The translations under genes were made by a program, and so were the position numbers. A model generated the notes under the pieces. The model did no database searches, was not told the origin of the DNA, and saw only the letters and a program-made list of their open reading frames with translations. DNA of 43,826 nucleotides from Actinomycetota bacterium (GTDB lineage: Bacteria; Actinomycetota; Thermoleophilia; Solirubrobacterales; 70-9): assembly GCA_018268655.1 (NCBI GenBank), contig JAFDWC010000007.1, forward strand, positions 1 through 43,826, given 5' to 3'. Each line of letters starts with the position of its first letter. Position 1 is the first letter of the stretch. Shown piece after piece: positions 21,317 through 23,392 of the stretch.

Positions 21317-23392
21317 ATGCTCGGGCCCGGTCGGTACCTGCTCGGCGCGGTCGAGGTGCTCCTCTGGGCGGGGCTCGCCGGGGCGGCCGGGTGGCGGCTG
21401 CGGACCTGGTTGGTGCCGCGGCTGCGAGGCACCGCGGCGGCGCTGGCGACGACGCTGATCGCGGTCGCGATCCTGATCTGGTGCGCCGAGCTGCTCGGGA
21501 GCTTCGGGGTGTGGGAGCCGGTGCCGTATCTGGTGCTGGTCGGGATGGTGGCCGCCGGCGCGTGGCTGTGGGCGCCGCTTCCGGATCGGCCCGCGAGGGT
21601 GGGCCCGAGCTACTCGCGGCTGGTCGTCGCCCTCGCCCTCCTGGTCGCCCTGGTCGCCACCATCCATTTCGGGGGCGGGGTCAAGGACAAGCTGGGGACG
21701 GGGATGACCGGGTTCGACTCGACCTGGTACCACGGGCCGTTCGCGGCTGGGTTCTTCCAGAGCGGCGACACCTGGAACCTGCACTTCATCGCGCCGCAGT
21801 TCCTGGCCTGGTTCTACCCGGCTAACAGCGAAGTCCTGCACGCAGCGGGAATGCTGGCGTTTGGGCGGGACCTGCTGTCGCCGCTACTCAACCTCGGCTG
21901 GTTCGTTGGCTGCCTGGTCGCCTGCTGGGCGATCGGGCGGCCCTACCGGGTGGCGCCTTGGTCGCTGGCTCTGGGGGCGGTGGCGCTGAGCGTGCCGGCG
22001 CTTTCCGACCAGGCCGGCGAGGCCCGCAACGACCTCGTCGGGATCTTCTTTCTGTTGGCGGCGGTCGCGGTGGCGCTGAACGCCTGGGGGGACGAGCGCC
22101 CGCGCCTCGACCTCGGCGCCCTCGCCGTCGTCGGCCTCGGGGCCGGCCTCGCAGCCGGCACCAAGCTCAACTTCATCCTGCCGGCGGCGGTCCTGGTGAT
22201 CGGCTTGGTCGTCCTGGCGCCGCGCGGCCGCCGCTGGCGGGCGCTTGCCGCCGCCGGTCTGGCGGCGCTGGCCGGGTGCGGCTACTGGTACCTGCGCAAC
22301 GTCGTCCACAGCGGCAACCCGCTGCCGTGGATCCACCATCTCGGCCCGATCTCGCTGCCGGCACCGGCCCAGGCCCTCGGCGGTCGCGAAGCCCACAGCG
22401 TCCTCGGCTACCTGACCGACGGCAGCGTCTGGTCGGACTGGTTCCTGCCCGGCCTCCACCACGGTCTCTGGATCGTCTGGCCGCTGCTGGCGCTCGGGGC
22501 CGTCGCCGGCCTCCTCCTCGCCCTCGTCCCCCTCGCCCGCCGGGTGTGGTTGTCCTTTGTCAACCAGGGCATGACAAAGGACAACCACACTGCCGCCGGG
22601 TTGACAAAGGACAACCACGCAGGCGCGGCCGGGGTGCTGGCGGTTGCGGGGCTGGTGGGGCTGGCCAGCGCCCTCGCCTGGCTCGTCGCCCCGACCTCGG
22701 CCTCGGGCCCCGACGGGATGCCGCGCGGCTTCGAATCGGGACTCCGCTACCTCGCCCCGGCGCTCGTCCTCGGCCTCGCCCTACTCCCGGCCGCTCCGCC
22801 CTTCCGCAAGCGCCTCGCGTCCCTCGCCACCGCTCCGTGGTTGTCCTTTGTCAACCAGGGCATGACAAAGGACAACCACACCGCCGCCGGGTTGACAAAG
22901 GACAACCACGCGGGGAGGCGGCTTGGGGTGGCGGCGCTCGCCCTCGGGCTGGTCGCGGTGGTGGCGGCCGGCTACGCCGTCCAGAGGCACTACCTGGCGA
23001 GCCGCTACAAGAACCCGTCGTTCACCACGCCTGGCCTCAACGCGGCGTTTGCCTGGGCACGGGGCGTCTCCGGGGCGCGGATCGCGACCACCAGCACCCG
23101 CCAGTACCCCCTGTTCGGCACCGACCTCTCGAACCGGGTCCAGTACCTCGGCGAGAGGACGGCCCACGGCGGCTTCGAGGCGCCGCCCAGCTGTCGTGCC
23201 TTCGTCCGCCTCCTCAACGCAGGCGATTACGACTACCTGGTCGCCTCCCGAGACCGGATCGAACCGGGGAAGCCGCCGTTCCCGCCGCAGGCGCGCTGGG
23301 CCGAACGGGGCGGCGCCGAAGTCGTCCTCCGCAAGCCGCCGACCGTCGTCTTCCGCCTCCACGGCCCGCTCGGCCCAGCCGCCTGCTCCTGA
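21317..23392 (+). CDS. GT-C-like multi-pass membrane glycosyltransferase with two in-frame palindromic insertions
   Basis: Integral membrane protein of 691 residues with more than ten hydrophobic segments and a soluble C-terminus. [20 protein letters not shown] in the first large outside loop resembles the acidic catalytic loop of GT-C (PMT/ArnT-like) enzymes that use polyprenyl-phosphate sugars (inference, moderate). [20 protein letters not shown] and [16 protein letters not shown] are reminiscent of family conserved blocks. Two nearly identical peptide inserts ([14 protein letters not shown], then [11 protein letters not shown]) at about residues 411-435 and 508-532 are encoded by a repeated DNA palindrome. 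Both fall in hydrophilic loops between membrane segments, where they would be tolerated. The neighbour murJ suggests cell-envelope work. Confidence 0.65.
22546..22618. repeat. Palindromic A-A'-A' repeat element, copy 1, inside a coding gene
   Basis: GTGGTTGTCCTTTGTCA (22546-22562), 9-nt loop, its exact inverse (22572-22588), a 13-nt linker, and a second inverse copy (22602-22618). The first hairpin extends to 19 bp (22544-22562 with 22572-22590). The element is translated through without stop or frameshift. It differs from copy 2 at one of 73 positions. Its composition is clearly lower in GC than the host gene. Confidence 0.92.
22837..22909. repeat. Palindromic A-A'-A' repeat element, copy 2, inside the same gene
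   Basis: The arms are 22837-22853, 22863-22879 and 22893-22909, with the same loop and linker as copy 1. It starts 291 bp (97 codons) downstream of copy 1 and is read in the same frame. Flanking DNA on both sides differs from that of copy 1, so this is not a simple duplication of a gene segment. Confidence 0.92.

Follow-up and report, generated by a model that had tools for sequence, protein, structure and literature searches.

The question raised by this locus is how one palindrome came to be read in frame twice within a single membrane-protein gene, and what kind of element it represents. In the window, that is, the whole 43,826-nucleotide stretch of DNA that was analyzed, the 17-mer GTGGTTGTCCTTTGTCA matches exactly at positions 22546(+), 22572(-), 22602(-), 22837(+), 22863(-), and 22893(-), giving six matches compared with 0.01 expected when up to 3 mismatches are allowed. 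As claimed in a first-pass annotation of the sequence, these matches belong to two 73-bp units (22546-22618 and 22837-22909), which are identical at 72 of 73 positions, the sole mismatch being unit position 46 (T22591/C22882). Each unit has the order arm (+), arm (-), and arm (-), made of GTGGTTGTCCTTTGTCA(ACC). This three-arm order had been described correctly, with all arms taken as 17 bp; the true length of arms 1 and 3 is 20 bp (GTGGTTGTCCTTTGTCAACC), and arm 2 matches across 17. Similarly, the element had been placed from 22544, a start that includes a 2-bp GT extension present in copy 1 only, the units proper beginning at 22546 and 22837. The two units have unrelated left flanks, and on the right their flanks part after a shared GC, in agreement with the earlier observation that the flanks differ. 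The lower GC of the inserts was likewise reproduced (0.55 to 0.56 in the units versus 0.74 in the flanks), and the units fold much more stably than shuffled sequences (z ~ -6).

Table 1. Coordinates of the host gene and of the two palindromic units within the window.
Feature	Position	Strand	Remark
Host gene, 691-aa multi-spanning GT-C-like membrane protein	21317..23392	+	Same-genus orthologues 63-68% identical
Palindromic element copy 1, 73 bp, three arms; 75 bp with flanking pyrimidine and purine	22546..22618	.	In frame, residues 411-435
Copy 1 arm 1, 20 bp	22546..22565	+	
Copy 1 arm 2, 17 bp perfect; closes 43-bp core hairpin 22546-22588	22569..22588	-	
Copy 1 extra half-arm (arm 3), after 10-nt spacer, 30-bp period	22599..22618	-	
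Palindromic element copy 2, 73 bp, 72/73 identical to copy 1	22837..22909	.	In frame, residues 508-532
Copy 2 arm 1	22837..22856	+	
Copy 2 arm 2; core hairpin 22837-22879	22860..22879	-	
Copy 2 extra half-arm	22890..22909	-	

The gene carrying both units lies between a MurJ-like gene on one side and a LepA-like gene on the other (named by inspection), and the orthologues of its protein in the same genus are 63 to 68% identical. Both units are predicted to read as the same 25-residue peptide, the first (residues 411-435) between hydrophobic segments 386-404 and 440-458 and the second (residues 508-532) between segments 478-496 and 537-555, which upholds the annotated shared frame, shared peptide, and placement in loops between hydrophobic segments. 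The host protein had no match in Pfam, only a sub-cutoff match in NCBIfam (WsfD hexose transferase), and no PDB homologue by sequence. The AlphaFold model of the protein, made from 11 sequences, was poor (mean pLDDT of 54), and no conclusion rests on it.

Arm searches in the organism's own genome, a 3.37-Mb MAG of 335 contigs that is 79% complete, placed the repeat family at 18 sites, including two at the ends of contigs; there were no hits with the pattern read backwards and none in the control for the 20-mer. Contigs C106 (at its end) and C331 (at its start) (L196, L199) stop inside copies with a near-perfect CCGGGATCCCGG-type center, probably because perfect hairpins break assembly, and therefore the family copy number is a lower bound. 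The smallest copies consist of a 43-bp hairpin (YGTGGTTGTCCTTTGTCAACC, a short center, and the inverse arm), and larger copies have a 20-bp half-arm added on one side (72 to 73 bp) or on both sides (103 to 105 bp), located about 30 bp from the neighboring arm across a variable spacer of 9 to 11 nt. The copy length was 43, 73, or 103 bp in 13 of 16 complete copies, and the three remaining copies (72, 72, and 105 bp without end bases) are all in gaps between genes. Including the terminal Y and R, copies are commonly 45, 75, or 105 bp long, which are multiples of three, and most have several frames without stops. GTGG and CCAC pair at the foot of the stem in 15/15 distinct cores, one of them via a single U-G pair, own-family cores also keep pairing via two-sided changes, and the outermost base is a pyrimidine at 34/34 ends. 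The family sites have unrelated flanks. In 15 of 16 cases, the left flank is rich in C and the right flank in G (C minus G, mean of 6.6 per 24 nt versus ~0, with an sd of 3.7, at random places); this bias fades over ~50 nt and may be a target preference. The loop and spacer sequence common to both window copies was found at no other family site, suggesting that one was probably copied from the other. The annotation had called for two insertions or conversion between the copies; judged from this shared sequence, a local event, by copying or conversion from one loop to the other, seems likelier than two independent insertions.

In addition to the window gene, in-frame copies are found in a second GT-C-like gene (C49) and a PMT-like glycosyltransferase gene (C233), as well as in the tails of a VWA-domain protein (C88) and a GNAT protein (C334). 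In the last case (L195:5110-5192), the element lengthens the protein and leaves intact the GTGA in which its stop overlaps the start of the next gene, and the proteins of relatives end without the element. The functions of these host genes are unrelated, and the remaining family sites are mostly intergenic. With 18 sites and several genes involved, the original proposal of an insertable palindrome read in frame, as in the Rickettsia palindromic elements (RPEs), was sustained. Across genes, the family DNA is read in all three frames (WLSFV.., VVVLRQ.., and GCPLSG..), indicating that the peptide is not what is kept; the encoded peptides are most likely by-products rather than functional domains.

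Next, the search was extended from the genome, where further copies exist, to its relatives. The exact hairpin pattern was absent from the other 398 genomes of the class searched, nine of the same genus among them, and the arm pattern was absent from 40 relatives, including all 11 same-genus genomes; no conserved domain with these peptides was found in distant taxa. The family hairpin was missing from the relatives checked at C97 (four relatives), C334, C122, and C159, and the C233 loop is empty in G002, G004, and G009. Since the sites carry no target duplication and no mover emerged from our searches, we infer insertion from the dispersal of the family and from these empty sites. Overall, these results point to a family of REP/RPE-like mobile palindromes that is species-specific and non-autonomous, tolerates translation, and is moved and homogenized by some further activity, a reading to which we assign a probability of roughly three in four.

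In most same-genus orthologues of the window gene, at least one of the two corresponding loops is occupied by a different hairpin, likewise in frame; the G001 orthologue has no hairpin in loop 1. At the C233 loop, G010 has another hairpin, CGCCTGTCCTTTGT...ACAAAGGACAGGCG, in the same frame (RLSFVTQRVTKD), and at C49, the hairpin GTGTGGTTGAGCTTTGGCG... of G009 occupies an identical residue position and reading frame. Three genic places are therefore common to species, with a stem that differs on both arms. Whether both peptides are absent from orthologues, the check suggested in the first-pass annotation, has no simple answer: the stems of this genome are not in the relatives, and the loops are mostly filled by other in-frame hairpins. 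As a separate observation, the orthologous GT-C gene of G002 (L228, G002 C28, 10134-11400) contains four in-frame hairpins of different families. In the six orthologous loop-1 hairpins, pairing is kept and both sides are changed at 7 of 21 pairs. The loop-1 covariation score was reached by 0 of 500 shuffles and slid controls were far lower, a result that is supportive and is not a probability, as the shuffle control leaves relatedness in. The shared genic places reflect either sites that were inherited and had their stems rewritten or favored spots that took up insertions repeatedly. On the former alternative, a RAYT-independent activity in the genus would spread ~45-bp hairpins and also rewrite existing ones: sites, even those within genes, would be passed on, and both arms of their stems would be replaced together to match the current hairpin of the lineage. 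We put this forward tentatively and with the odds against it; if true, the palindrome would be undergoing concerted evolution, and its trace in a protein would be a peptide that changes without moving.

The same data count to some extent against mobility, since the three genic sites occupied by other-stem hairpins in relatives also fit a conserved functional hairpin, and selection on structure could account for the compensating changes. The hairpins would then be functional RNA or DNA structures (for mRNA processing, translation pacing, or protein binding) fixed by selection, with compensated stem change. Such a role agrees with the occupation of these loops by hairpins in most same-genus orthologues, with the two-sided changes and their covariation score, and with the very stable folds and the frequent ATA/TAT-like centers; nevertheless, it has to accommodate four own sites without the family hairpin in relatives, the G001 loop 1 without a hairpin, functionally unrelated host genes, and copies that lie between genes or use any of the three frames. 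Moreover, one stem common to a genome-wide family is not expected from site-by-site selection, and we consider this explanation improbable.

The RAYT/Y1 transposase domain (PF01797) had no match in the own genome (79% complete) or in 11 same-genus genomes, one of which is given as 100% complete, in a search that was positive in 5 of 14 control genomes. Within draft-genome limits, this argues against classical REPs of the GTAG/GTGG type moved by RAYT, which we regard as very unlikely here, even though a short dispersed palindrome in single and grouped units, a GTGG start, and the known presence of REPs inside genes (PMC3733652) would suit them. The GTGG is base-paired at both ends, and the stem measures 17 to 20 bp, compared with 5 to 13 bp in published GTAG REP families (PMC3733652). 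More broadly, no transposase or other mover for the hairpin was identified, the hairpin pattern was absent from viral contigs, and Rfam gave only sub-threshold microRNA-like hairpin matches. An exact 16-mer scan of the genome contig collection returned 106 single-arm stretches, which were set aside as chance, and no hairpin relative was recognized among them. A MITE, in which the two terminal inverted repeats from a DDE-type insertion sequence have become joined, would explain the near-perfect inverted repeats, the sharp common ends, and the dispersal; it is highly improbable given a core of only 43 bp, the absence of flanking direct repeats of at least 4 bp (target duplication) at all 16 sites, the lack of blastn matches to phage and plasmid records, and the failure to see an insertion sequence sharing these ends at any examined site. 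Finally, a conserved GT-C protein segment or a MAG assembly artefact, to which the extra residues of relatives in these loops and the two contigs ending inside a copy might point, can practically be dismissed, because the DNA is palindromic, the residues differ between species, other genes use other frames, two copies with different flanks lie on one 43.8-kb contig, and same-place hairpins occur in independent genomes.

Hairpins were also surveyed across the genus. Pieces of 0.2 to 0.5 Mb from each of five same-genus genomes contained 22 to 66 hairpins with a score of at least 12, compared with 2 to 5 in a first-order Markov control, and the sampled same-genus genomes have several hairpin families each. 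The own-genome sample is biased, as it includes contigs picked for carrying the element; pieces not picked in this way had 21 hairpins in 340 kb. Two other genera of the taxonomic family had 25 and 16 hairpins in 200 kb, only 2 and 0 of them with a score of at least 16, and no repeated hairpin family was evident in those 200 kb. Part of the hairpin excess is ordinary terminators or GC-rich repeats. The own genome also has a second family, GAGGTTGCC...GGCAACCTC, whose center is frequently ctAtG/cAtG, at L191:4359-4401, L298:5918-5960, L303:8175-8217, and L312:16396-16438, and a third, GGGGCGCCTTTCTCTC...GAGAGAAAGGCGCCCC, at L296:14704-14744, L299:7216-7266, L308:8635-8673, and L309:12320-12364. 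G006 (L334-L350) has at least 5 hairpin families, with GTTGATGGGCCGAAAACC present in 10 copies in 344 kb, and its longer paired hairpins (GGCGCGGCCATCCCCCTCAT and GGGCGCCTCATGGGGGTC) are grouped close together.

For a mobile, translation-tolerant repeat, the following course of events may be envisaged. An enzyme or a replication-linked process would act on the hairpin in trans and generate copies elsewhere, favoring sites with C-rich left and G-rich right flanks. Copies landing in spacers, membrane-protein loops, or protein tails would survive as harmless translated peptides, and gene-breaking ones would be lost. In the window gene, one of the two loops might have received its unit from the other. 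In the long run, sites would persist and the stem would be replaced on both arms, either via conversion from the active copies of the lineage or via hairpin-templated correction. How short palindromes without a known transposase spread and enter coding sequence has been an open question since the Rickettsia RPEs. In a genus with many sequenced species, empty sites, shared sites with changed stems, and in-frame copies are all observable, and thus insertion of new copies versus rewriting in place can be tested by comparative genomics. Hairpin inserts of this kind would be a route for proteins to gain and change loop peptides.

The RPEs, roughly 100 to 150 bp in size, lie in frame inside functional proteins and also between genes, with several families per genome, and we know of no mover identified for them. 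The element described here is similar in being a palindromic repeat found in frame in genes and in spacers, with several families per genome and no identified mover. It differs in its much shorter, 43-bp core with modular 30-bp steps, in stems that are species-specific at shared sites, and in its high-GC host, which from GC and gene content does not appear to belong to the Rickettsiales. In-frame insertion of the Rickettsia palindromes has been stated in the literature, together with in-frame palindromes in Opitutus, Thauera, Xanthomonas, and other proteobacteria (PMC3733652). The first-pass annotation, which knew of such inserts in Rickettsia and of none in actinobacteria, was therefore too narrow as regards bacteria outside Rickettsia (PMC3733652, PMC2759123); our literature search found no actinobacterial report of in-frame palindromes, which does not prove their absence. 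A gene with two REP inserts, and two Xanthomonas species whose recB genes have different REPs at nearly the same site, have also been described (PMC3733652). Since in-frame palindromes, double inserts, and differing REPs at one site are already documented (PMC3733652, PMC2759123), the core idea is not new; what is new here are genus-wide hairpin families without RAYT and stem turnover visible at shared coding sites. The C-left/G-right flanks are a further special trait of the family.

As in GTAG and CGTC REPs, the palindromes described here are short and dispersed, single or grouped, and in some cases inside genes. Unlike GTAG REPs, they have no unpaired one-sided GTAG/GTGG tag, GTGG being paired at both ends, and they combine a 17- to 20-bp stem with the absence of RAYT in the genus genomes tested. 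CGTC REPs lack a dedicated transposase (PMC3733652), and none was found for the present element either; those REPs have a CGTC tag, an 8- to 9-bp stem, and a 4- to 5-nt loop, whereas the stem here is 17 to 20 bp and no tag is present in the flanks. The enterobacterial RU-1, RU-2, and RU-3 elements (ERIC-like) are small mobile sequences of 103 to 168 bp that are read in frame, including in a putative inner-membrane protein (PMC2759123); our element shares with them the reading in frame of a small sequence, membrane-protein gene included, and differs from these larger enterobacterial sequences in anatomy. In the mitochondria of Nematomorpha, coding palindromes also keep their hairpins within translated genes (PMC6649704), as is the case here; there, both arms encode conserved parts of proteins, whereas the palindrome described here is an extra insert in variable loops.
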